From: an uncultured Flavobacteriales bacterium | GTDB taxonomy: Bacteria > Bacteroidota > Bacteroidia > Flavobacteriales_G > Salibacteraceae | Length of the DNA stretch: 64,000 nt | Direction: 5' to 3' | Assembly: GCA_937121175.1 (NCBI GenBank) | Contig: CAKZKD010000018.1 | Coordinates: 1 to 64,000 of the forward strand | Shown here: positions 21,195 through 30,870 of the stretch, in pieces | Layout of the letters: each line of letters starts with the position of its first letter | Numbering within the stretch: the stretch's first letter is position 1 | Position numbers and translations under genes: made by a program | Notes under the pieces: generated by a model | Told to the model about the DNA's origin: nothing | Database searches by the model: none | What the model saw: the letters and a program-made list of their open reading frames with translations, nothing else

Positions 21195-22064
21195 ATGAAA
21201 AATAAAGGCCTAGAAAAATACGACCTACTTAAAAACGAACCAACAAAAAGGCAGTTTAGCATTGACAATCTTTCTGATTACTGGATAATAAACTCAAAAC
21301 ATTCTGGTGTTCCACACTCACATAGCTTCTATCAAATAATTTGGTTCAAAAGTGATGAAGGCGCACACTATATAGATTTTGAAGGGTACGAAATAAAAAA
21401 GAATCGAATTTTTTTCGTTGCAAAAAATCAAGTACACTATTTTGTGCAACGTAAAGATTACAAAGGCTATTTGCTTCATTTTAATGAGTCCTTTTTATTG
21501 AACAACGAAACTGATGTCAACTTTTTTTTAACCTATTGTATTTTCAATAATCAAGCGAACCCCTACTTTCAAATTCCCAAAGCGTTAGAAAGTACACTTT
21601 CAAAATTTCTAGATTTAATGGTTGTTGAAATCGAGAATAATTCCAAATTCGGCAACAGCCTTATCCTTTCAAATCTCTTAAAATCAATGCTACTAATTAT
21701 TGAACGAGAAATGAAGAAAAACCAGTCGAATAGCCCATTAATTAACAATTCTAACTATCACAAATTCATTGACCTCCTTGAAAAAAATTACGCAAACAAC
21801 TGGTCGGTCTCTGATTATGCCAACGCTTTATCAATTTCTACTAAAACATTGAACTCCTTGGTAAAAGCGACTAACGGAACTAAAGTTTCCAAAACAATTT
21901 CAGCTAGAATTATTTTGGAGGCAAAACGAAAACTCACGCACTCAAAATTATATATCAATCAAATTGCAAACGATTTGGGCTTCAACGACCCTTATTATTT
22001 CTCTAAATATTTTCTTAAACACGTAAACTGTTCTCCGGCAGAGTTCAGAAAATCGATTTCCTAA
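21195..22064 (+). CDS. AraC family transcriptional regulator
   Basis: Cupin-like N-terminus plus HTH: INQIANDLGFNDPYYFSKYFLKHVNCSPAEFRKS. Confidence 0.9.
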   Translation: MKNKGLEKYDLLKNEPTKRQFSIDNLSDYWIINSKHSGVPHSHSFYQIIWFKSDEGAHYIDFEGYEIKKNRIFFVAKNQVHYFVQRKDYKGYLLHFNESFLLNNETDVNFFLTYCIFNNQANPYFQIPKALESTLSKFLDLMVVEIENNSKFGNSLILSNLLKSMLLIIEREMKKNQSNSPLINNSNYHKFIDLLEKNYANNWSVSDYANALSISTKTLNSLVKATNGTKVSKTISARIILEAKRKLTHSKLYINQIANDLGFNDPYYFSKYFLKHVNCSPAEFRKSIS

Positions 22065-23868: not shown

Positions 23869-23896
23869 GTCATGCTGAATTTATTTCAGCATCTCA
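23869..23896. repeat. GTCATGCTGAA-type dispersed palindromic repeat
   Basis: GTCATGCTGAATTTATTTCAGCATCTCA. Confidence 0.65.
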
Positions 23897-24566: not shown

Positions 24567-25442
24567 ATGACGCTAAAACATCCGAAAATAGAATTCGAAA
24601 ACAATCGTTTTCCATCGTCTTCTTTTGACTTGGTGGATATACAAAAAGTGTTGACTGCGAAATACGAGAACCACTCGCCTTTCGAATTGCATCGTATCGA
24701 CTTTTTCACCATTGTGCTTTATACGGCAGGAAATGAGCTACACACCATTGACTTTAATAACTATCCCTGTAAAAAAGGGACTGTACTTCTTCTACGAAAG
24801 GGACAGCTTCATAAATTCTCAGAGTCAACAGTAGAAGGAGTAATTTTAGTATTTACTTATGATTTTTTATCCAGTTATTTTACCAAATCTGAGGTTGAAA
24901 ATGCCCTGCTCATCTTTAACGAATTCCTAAAACAACCTGCAATTCAACTTACCGAGCAACAATTGGTTTCAATGCAAATAACAATAGAACAAATACAACA
25001 CGAATACCTGAACATGCAAGATGAGCAGTCGCCTAAAATAATTAGGAGTTTACTGCAGGTAATCATAAACACAGTTTACAGGGTAGTGCCATTAAAGCAT
25101 TCGACGGAGACTAATAAAAAATACTTATCGGATTTCATTTGCTTTCAAGGCATGATAGAAGCCGATTATAATCCAACAACTAAGGTAAATGACTATGCAC
25201 AACGGTTAGGTATCCACCCAAAAACATTAAACACGATTACACAACGTGTTGTGAGTAAATCGGCAAAAACGTTTATTGACGAAATCTTAATCAATAACAT
25301 AAAAAGACAACTGCTAAATGCTCCGCTTTCTATTAAGGAAATAGCCTACCAATGTGGATTTGCGGAAACCACTAATTTCAACAATTACTTCAAGAAACGA
25401 GTAGGGAAAACACCGCTAGAATTCAGAAAAAATAAAAACTAG
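24567..25442 (+). CDS. AraC family transcriptional regulator
   Basis: HTH region SIKEIAYQCGFAETTNFNNYFKKRVGKTPLEFRKNKN. Confidence 0.9.
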   Translation: MTLKHPKIEFENNRFPSSSFDLVDIQKVLTAKYENHSPFELHRIDFFTIVLYTAGNELHTIDFNNYPCKKGTVLLLRKGQLHKFSESTVEGVILVFTYDFLSSYFTKSEVENALLIFNEFLKQPAIQLTEQQLVSMQITIEQIQHEYLNMQDEQSPKIIRSLLQVIINTVYRVVPLKHSTETNKKYLSDFICFQGMIEADYNPTTKVNDYAQRLGIHPKTLNTITQRVVSKSAKTFIDEILINNIKRQLLNAPLSIKEIAYQCGFAETTNFNNYFKKRVGKTPLEFRKNKN

Positions 25443-27153: not shown

Positions 27154-27199
27154 TGTAACAACGTGTTACATTTGTATTGATATTTAACACGTTGTTACA
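27154..27199. promoter_or_regulatory. Paired palindromic operator-like sites upstream of fic
   Basis: TGTAACA-ACG-TGTTACA at 27154-27170; exact 15-bp inverted repeat TGTAACAACGTGTTA (27154-27168) / TAACACGTTGTTACA (27185-27199), reaching the start codon. Confidence 0.65.
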
Positions 27200-28479
27200 T
27201 GAAAATTGAGAAACCGCCATACTTCGAAGAACTTGAAATAGAAAACTATCTCGAATCTATCTTGGATAAAAACGTAAAACTATTCTTTCAAGAAGTTGAT
27301 AAACGGTATTTCTACTGGACAGAAATCAAACATCGACCAAACCAGCCGTACGCCTCACCACAACAAACATGGAAAATGCTAAAAGCTCACCGCTTAGTCC
27401 AAGCAAAGCAATTATTTCTTGGCAATCATCCATTTCACTTCTGCGTAACATCGTTCATTCAACAAGATCTACACAATTTTGACCTAAAGCTTATAGGCGG
27501 ATTGTATAAAGATTCCATTTCAACTCAAGAGCAACAGGAGTATTTAAAGAGTTCACTGCTTGAAGAAGCTATTGCATCTTCCCAAATAGAAGGTGCAGCA
27601 ACAACAACAGATGTCGCTAAAGAAATGATAAAATCGGGGCGAAAACCACGCAACGAATCCGAACAAATGATTATTAATAATTTCCGAGCAATACAAGAAA
27701 TTGAAAATCGATTGGATGAAGATATGTCTGTGAACCTTATTCTTGACATACACGAAATCATGACCGTAAAAACTGGTGCAGCGAAGTATGCTGGTGAGTT
27801 TCGCAATCACCCGATTTACGTAAAAGACCACATTGATGGAGAAATTGCGTTTACCGCTCCAGATTCTAGTGAGATAAATCCTTTAATAGAAGACCTGCTC
27901 AACTTTATCAACCGGGAAGATGAGTTTTATCACCCCATAATAAAGGCTTCTATTCTGCATTTTATGATAGGATACATCCACCCTTTTGGAGATGGAAACG
28001 GAAGAACAGCGCGGGCCTTGTTCTATTGGTATCTTATTAAAAAGGGTTATTCTCTCTTGAAACATATCTCTATTTCACGAGCCATATTAGATTCACGAAC
28101 CAGTTACGATAAAGCGTTTTTGAAAACCGAAAATGACAATAACGACCTCACCTACTTCATCATGTACTCCATGAAAAGCCTTCGTGTAGCGTTACAAAGC
28201 TTAGTAACTTACCGTGATAAAAAACGAGAAGAAAAGCAAAAAGCGGCTGAAATAAGTTACGAACTCACTCTAAAAGGCTTCAACAAACGACAAGCAGATT
28301 TATTGGGTTATTTATCAGTGAAACCGGAAGCTACCGTAACAGTTCCCATATACTCGGAACGAAATGGAATAGTTCGCCAAACTGCAACTCGAGATTTAGC
28401 GGAATTGGTAAAAAAGGGAATGTTGAGAAAGCAGAAAGTTGGAAAGACGGTGGTTTATGAGCTGGTTGATAACACTTGA
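27199..28479 (+). CDS. Fic family protein (class II) with C-terminal winged helix
   Basis: HPFGDGNGRTAR catalytic motif; N-terminal inhibitory motif SSQIEG; C-terminal VRQTATRDLAELVKKGMLRK. Confidence 0.93.
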   Translation: MKIEKPPYFEELEIENYLESILDKNVKLFFQEVDKRYFYWTEIKHRPNQPYASPQQTWKMLKAHRLVQAKQLFLGNHPFHFCVTSFIQQDLHNFDLKLIGGLYKDSISTQEQQEYLKSSLLEEAIASSQIEGAATTTDVAKEMIKSGRKPRNESEQMIINNFRAIQEIENRLDEDMSVNLILDIHEIMTVKTGAAKYAGEFRNHPIYVKDHIDGEIAFTAPDSSEINPLIEDLLNFINREDEFYHPIIKASILHFMIGYIHPFGDGNGRTARALFYWYLIKKGYSLLKHISISRAILDSRTSYDKAFLKTENDNNDLTYFIMYSMKSLRVALQSLVTYRDKKREEKQKAAEISYELTLKGFNKRQADLLGYLSVKPEATVTVPIYSERNGIVRQTATRDLAELVKKGMLRKQKVGKTVVYELVDNT

Positions 28480-28602
28480 GTAGTTGAATTTATTAAATAA
28501 ACAGAATATTGTAAGCCAGAGTTTAATAGCTTCGAAGTTAGTTGCAAAAAACCTTAGACATTTTGGTTTTAAATAATTTGATGTTTCAAAATCACATCGT
28601 TT

Positions 28603-29919
28603 CTACTTACAACTCATCAGTTTCTTGTAATTATTAACACCCAACAGTGATTTTATCCTTGAATTGGCTTGAGCAAGAAGACTATTCTCATGTTCTGATA
28701 GTCCTATTTTTTTTAATATCTCAATTCGCAAAACAAATTCAAGGGTTCGTCCATAAACCAATAAATCGAAATCATTTAAATGTTTTAAATGCTCTCCATT
28801 ATGAGCTATTTCATTTCGAGTCCTTTTGACCTTTATTAAAAAATCTTCAATTGAATAATCAATGACTTCTTTCAATATTACTTCAATTTGTGGGCTGAAA
28901 TCATTCAACCTTGTTATCAGATTCGGTTGTTTCCAAAAACTTGATTCTTTCCTGAACCATGCGAACAGCTCAGGGTCTTTTATCAATCCTTTAATCTTAT
29001 TGCGTTTCTCAACCCTTTCCGCATCAATTACCTGTTTTTTATAAAACCTATGAAAACTTTCAAGACCAACACATGCGTTAAGGAATCTAGCACGATTCGA
29101 TAGTCCCAAGTTATAGAGCTTTTCAAGAGATAAATCTATAATAACTGTCAACTTATCATCTTTGAACCATTCGTAAAAAACAGTTTTAATTTCCTTCTCA
29201 ATTTTATTGAATCTTATATCAAAATTTCTAGGAAAGAGTCTCTCGTCTAGGTTGTTTTTTAACCAGATGTAATCAAAATGGGTACTATGTAAATTGAAAA
29301 AAGTTATGTTTTCATGTTCAGAGTTTTGATTAGTTAAAAAAAGAATTAACCCCTTTAAAGCTTTGGAGATTTTTAAATAATCATCTAAAGGTTCCTGGTC
29401 TTCTGACTCTATTTCAATTTGTACTTGCCTCTCTACCAAAAGAGAATTAAAACTGGATTGTTTCACATAATTAATAATGATCGAGACGCTAAACACTCCA
29501 AGAGTAAAATCGACAATAGTTTCCTTTTCAGGAATGTCAACCGGTTTTCCTCTAGTGATATTTAAAAAATTCTTAGATGTAATCCAATTATCTAATGCCT
29601 TATTCGAGATAAGCATTTTTTTAAACCTAATCTCTTCAAGAGTTTTCGCTTGCAAGTACCTAATACATCTTTCTACCCTGATTTCACCGGAAAACCCTCC
29701 TTCTCCACTTGACCAAAATCAAATAGAACAATTTATAAATGTAACGTTACCGTAACCAGTAAAAATTCCGAATAATATCGGCCAATCTTCAATCAAACCT
29801 CTTTTATCTAGGCCCGTTTCTATATAAATTTCATCAGAATTGACCACAAGCCAAGCGCTTTCAAAGCACTTAGTTGTCTTTGGAATATATACTGTCCCAA
29901 AATAGCGATCGTTTCTCAT
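28603..29919 (-). pseudogene. ApeA-like HEPN-domain anti-phage protein, split by one in-frame TGA (29719-29721)
   Basis: The 66-aa ORF (MRNDRYFGTVYIP...GYGNVTFINCSI*) and the 350-aa ORF are in the same frame, separated by one TGA; C-terminal HEPN motif RNEIAH. Confidence 0.65.
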
Positions 29920-29925
29920 TAACTA

Positions 29926-30870
29926 TTACTTCAACCAACCCAACACATTCCCCTCAACCCTATTCTCAATACCCGAAATATCGCCCTTAACAAAAGGCTT
30001 ACCTGTAATATTCTCGAATAACTCGATATAACGGTCAGAAACGAGCGTTACAAACTCGTCTGGCATATAGGGCATAGTTTGCCCTTCAAGGCCCTGAAAA
30101 CCATTCTCCATGAGCCACTCGCGTACAAATTCTTTAGAGAGTTGCTTTTGCTTTTCACCTTTGGCTTGTCTTTCGGCATATCCATCCGCATAAAAATATC
30201 GACTAGAGTCTGGTGTATGAATCTCGTCAATCAACCGAATAGCACCCTCTGCATCTCGACCAAATTCGTATTTTGTATCTACCAAAATCAAATCGCGAGC
30301 TGCGGCTAGCTCTGTTCCCCGATGAAACAGCTTGCGGGTATAATCTTCTAATTGTACATAGTCCGATTCCGATATAATGCCTTGTTTTATAATCTCTTCT
30401 CGAGAAATATCCTCGTCATGCCCCTCTTCTGCTTTAGTGGCTGGTGTTATTATCGGTTCCGGGAACTTATCGTTCTCCTCCATTCCGTCTGGCATTGGCA
30501 CGCCACACAACATGCGCTTTCCGGTTTTGTATTCGCGCCATGCGTGTCCTGCCAAGTATCCACGAATCACCATTTCAATCGGAAATACTTTGCAGGTTTT
30601 TCCAACCGTAACGCTAGGGTCTGGCGTTGCTAATTTCCAATTCGGAACAATATCAGAAGTAGCATCCAGCATCAATTCGGCAATTTGGTTCAGTACCTGC
30701 CCTTTATAAGGAATCCCTTTTGGCAAAATGTAATCGAAGGCAGAAATACGGTCGCTGGCCACCATGACCACCAAATCGTTCTCTAGTGTGTACACTTCGC
30801 GTACCTTGCCTTTGTAGTGATTCAGCTGTCCTGGGAAATTAAAATTGGTAGTACCGAGTGTATTACTCAT
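29926..30870 (-). CDS. purC: Phosphoribosylaminoimidazole-succinocarboxamide synthase
   Basis: [66 protein letters not shown]. Confidence 0.95.

Follow-up and report, generated by a model that had tools for sequence, protein, structure and literature searches.

An ApeA-like HEPN gene of an uncultured Flavobacteriales bacterium with a single premature TGA: most likely a recently broken accessory gene

ApeA proteins are named in a study (PMC3710099) in which ApeA-NTD1 is described as mostly beta and as joined to a HEPN (Apea) domain, with Rx4-6H as the RNase active site, and ApeA has been treated as a HEPN defence system (PMC7699616, PMC10952713). To judge by the title of a reference cited in PMC13405049, deoxydinucleotides activate ApeA. 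By analogy with the family, an intact gene of this type would encode a protein in which the beta-rich domain senses infection and the HEPN domains dimerise and cut RNA, so that growth would halt before the phage spreads, i.e., abortive infection. Here we describe a gene of this kind in the genome of an uncultured Flavobacteriales bacterium (GenBank assembly GCA_937121175.1), located on the minus strand at 28603..29919 of the stretch of 64,000 nucleotides of contig CAKZKD010000018.1 that was analysed (hereafter the window). It comprises 438 codons plus a terminal stop and is interrupted by a premature in-frame TGA at codon 67 (29719..29721, context ATT TGA TTT), a site at which its relatives are open. 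We consider it probable that this is a horizontally acquired single-gene ApeA-like anti-phage gene that was recently inactivated by a nonsense point mutation at this codon.

One gene in two open reading frames

The ORF track contains two ORFs, of 66 and 350 amino acids. The first, codons 1–66 (29722..29919, minus strand), covers the start of the beta-rich ApeA_NTD1 domain and is what the normal code would yield from the gene's own start, while the second (28603..29655, minus strand) begins well past the stop, at an internal TTG at 29655. An earlier note had proposed that these two minus-strand ORFs share one frame and are split by the TGA at 29719-29721, and both the translation and the profile matches bear this out. 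The translation of 28603-29919 contains a single internal stop, ca. 15% into the gene, and no frameshift, and 371 codons are open from the TGA down to 28603. Base composition predicts ca. 38 stops per 438 codons, against the one seen (probability of one or fewer ca. 3e-16), and the other five frames of the same stretch carry 16–61. Codon-usage likelihood prefers the annotated frame in both pieces, by a slight margin for the piece of 66 codons. When the PADLOC PDC-S58 profile is compared with the pieces separately, its positions 17–78 match residues 4–66 (E 9e-11) and its positions 91–448 match the downstream piece (E 1.3e-36). The two pieces thus match consecutive stretches of one profile and are one gene with a nonsense codon, not two genes.

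For profile searches only, the protein was read through the stop. The joined protein lies above the curated Pfam cut-offs of both families (25.5 bits for PF18862 and 24.4 bits for PF18739): ApeA_NTD1 (PF18862) matches residues 7–251 with 47–51.2 bits (29167..29901, minus strand), a match that spans the stop and has this one TGA inside, and HEPN_Apea (PF18739) matches residues 280–409 with 52.1–56 bits (28693..29082, minus strand) and has no stop inside. The catalytic HEPN motif Rx4-6H is intact despite the stop; it reads RNEIAH at residues 368–373 (28801..28818, minus strand), and R368 and H373 are invariant in 11 aligned sequences. The PDC-S58 model PDLC05044 aligns residues 4–433 of 438 with profile positions 17–448 of 451 (E 1.7e-51), and the Cas13-ApeA HEPN models of PADLOC match the joined protein at ca. 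1e-18. The ApeA layout suggested earlier, i.e., a beta-rich N-terminus followed by a C-terminal HEPN domain with an RxxxxH motif, is therefore upheld by both Pfam families and by the PDC-S58 and Cas13-ApeA profiles, and the profile search of the joined protein that the earlier note had proposed as a check recovered the ApeA N-terminal as well as the HEPN family. No NCBIfam model matched the joined protein, and no relative was found by sequence among solved structures. The AlphaFold models were weak, with a mean pLDDT of 34 from the single sequence and of 53 from 11 sequences; in them strands precede helices, and Foldseek returned no meaningful fold match for the weak model with a pLDDT of 53. 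By homology, the gene at 28603-29919 is a member of the ApeA-like/PDC-S58 kind. Its two domains do not lie in one continuous frame, since the TGA stands at codon 67 where relatives have no stop, and we therefore class it with the members as a copy that is interrupted, not as a working member.

Relatives and genomic setting

Of 395 genomes sampled from the class, 10 contain ApeA_NTD1, and the genes of the nine other genomes all lack an internal stop; one further intact ApeA_NTD1 gene occurs within the same order. A scan with one of the relatives from the class yielded ten Flavobacteriaceae genes, from Flavobacterium, Olleya, Winogradskyella, Hyunsoonleella, Lutibacter, and Tamlana, none of which is interrupted in the N-terminus or the HEPN domain; the nine besides that of Flavobacterium represent six distinct sequences. 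The closest relatives found are 14–23% identical over their length. At the position of the stop, each of the ten relatives in the wider alignment carries an amino acid rather than a gap. Relatives that start at the downstream ORF and lack the N-terminus, an observation that would have spoken against the earlier interpretation, were not encountered: in both alignments 10 out of 10 relatives possess the N-terminal part. A direct scan of the genome and viral contigs gave no close relatives of the gene, tblastn of plasmids and phages gave no relatives, and no sibling strain carrying this gene was found. A five-sequence alignment tried as query for the locus scan was dropped, as it was too divergent. 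A literature search on interrupted HEPN defence genes produced nothing to the point.

Directly upstream of the ApeA-like gene lies purC (SAICAR synthetase; 29926..30870, minus strand), a conserved anchor whose stop is separated by 6 bases from the ApeA-like start. In three congeneric species purC and the genes preceding it occur in the same order and are followed by different genes, and the assemblies of these three congeners, one of which is 83% complete, contain no ApeA-like gene at any place. The G+C content of the gene is 31–32%, compared to 37–45% in its flanks, and it is single-copy in the genome, as searched in a draft of 39 contigs. Horizontal acquisition is the best reading of this gene. 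At both ends of it we observed a 14-base direct repeat (28596-28609 and 29908-29921; 12 of 14 bases identical), which is possibly a mark of its insertion; the repeat was picked post hoc, and 9 out of 3000 random site pairs in the window match as well.

On the other side, a gene for a SoFic-like Fic protein (27199..28479, plus strand; PDLC03963 SoFic, 2.4e-53; PF02661) converges on the ApeA-like gene, so that two single-gene defence candidates stand next to each other after purC. The Fic protein has the HPFGDGNGR motif, and the other Fic proteins of the genome are just 27–32% identical to it. Together, the two genes have the appearance of a small defence spot that was acquired. Further along the non-syntenic side of purC are two genes for AraC-type regulators (24567-25442 and 21195-22064), one confirmed with Pfam and the other recognized by eye. 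A REP-like palindrome, GTCATGCTGAATTTATTTCAGCATC, is present at 23869-23893; the genome holds 23 copies with at most two mismatches (reversed control: 0), and in two congeners copies lie between phoH and purC.

Possible causes of the premature stop

A nonsense point mutation at codon 67 would leave a 66-residue fragment of the sensor without a HEPN domain; the stop deletes most of the sensor and the entire RNase domain, and a functional product would probably no longer be made. Ca. 4.7% of random substitutions in the gene create a stop, and two or more stops would usually be expected after more than ca. 100 unconstrained substitutions (7.6%), which sets a ceiling of ca. 7–8% on unconstrained divergence. 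Since there is just one stop, the gene can have drifted little, and its loss, if real, should be recent. Among the options raised in the earlier note, inactivation is the one we favor, given the single stop, the absence of a frameshift, and the uninterrupted relatives. Against it speaks that all but one of the codons are intact, including those of the catalytic motif, and a working gene that is recoded or miscalled would look alike. Nevertheless, inactivation is more likely than an error of sequencing, a restart within the gene, or readthrough.

The TGA could be an error of sequencing or assembly, in which case the gene would be an ordinary intact ApeA-like defence gene. That the lesion is the only one in an otherwise intact frame, and that the genome is a draft in 39 contigs, are both consistent with this. 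However, the difference is of the substitution type and not a homopolymer indel, the surrounding ATT TGA TTT TGG containing no long homopolymer, and consensus assemblies seldom contain substitution errors. We therefore regard a miscalled base as unlikely.

Somewhat less probable still is an internal restart, at the TTG at 29655 or at a later ATG, which would produce a shortened HEPN protein that still works, either by itself or in combination with the piece of 66 residues. The 350-codon ORF is open and holds the whole HEPN domain, which scores equally well without the N-terminus. However, no relative with such a start was found, and promoter-like sites are no commoner than in shuffled sequences. 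Furthermore, the first 66 residues, with which the sensor domain begins, are the best-conserved stretch in comparison with the Flavobacteriaceae proteins (36–38% identity vs. 13–27% elsewhere), and a product starting past the stop would consequently lose the most constrained part of the protein. The restart at the TTG thus lacks support.

Readthrough or recoding of the TGA at a low level, which would cap the amount of a toxic RNase, appears quite improbable. The frame is intact for 371 codons past the TGA, and HEPN RNases of the ApeA type can be toxic, so that low expression might be of help. However, TGA is an ordinary terminator here: it ends 5 of the 35 long ORFs in the window, in three cases with the same T following, and no relative has a stop at the site of codon 67. 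A search of the genome for SelB gave nothing over the cut-off, the best match to the model being consistent, by its length of 397 codons, with elongation factor Tu, and the hits to the tRNA-Sec model were all below the gathering score and represent ordinary Ser, Leu, and Tyr tRNAs. A selenoprotein reading of the TGA was rejected, as both a SelB over the cut-off and a tRNA-Sec are absent from the genome, and readthrough as an option of the earlier note is left without dedicated machinery. A more elaborate version would make the stop a translational safety catch: the TGA would be retained and read through from time to time, which would hold a toxic HEPN RNase at very low levels until readthrough rises upon infection; we mention it as a speculation with little chance of being correct. 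That the stop is part of a phase-variable switch, the remaining option of the earlier note, has practically no probability: the stop does not lie in a repeat tract, the locus has neither an invertible segment nor an inverted repeat around the stop (just distant, short, imperfect repeats), and the genome contains no silent second copy for recombination. With neither SelB nor tRNA-Sec, with TGA as a normal stop, and without the anatomy of a switch, recoding and phase variation are thus unsupported.

Comparison with known ApeA-like systems

The interruption of this ApeA-like gene most likely reflects an ordinary, recently broken accessory gene. It would add to the examples of single-gene defence systems that are acquired at a variable site and later lost through a point mutation, the pattern of gain and loss that one would expect of abortive-infection genes, which are costly. 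The case is also a warning for annotation pipelines: one gene shows as two ORFs and may be reported as a hypothetical protein of 66 residues and a separate, truncated HEPN protein.

The gene resembles PDC-S58 (PDLC05044 and its sister models) in its near-full profile match, two-domain layout, and single-gene form but differs from it by the stop at codon 67. With the ApeA-like proteins of the Flavobacteriaceae it shares the same start, the G-x-x-TF-x-x-C segment, and the R and H of the HEPN motif, whereas their frames are open for at least 406–408 codons and their overall identity to it is 20–22%. With the ApeA anti-phage proteins, to which it is likened by Pfam domains and motif, it has in common both Pfam domains and the order of a beta-rich N-terminus followed by a HEPN domain with RxxxxH, although the gene described here is interrupted.
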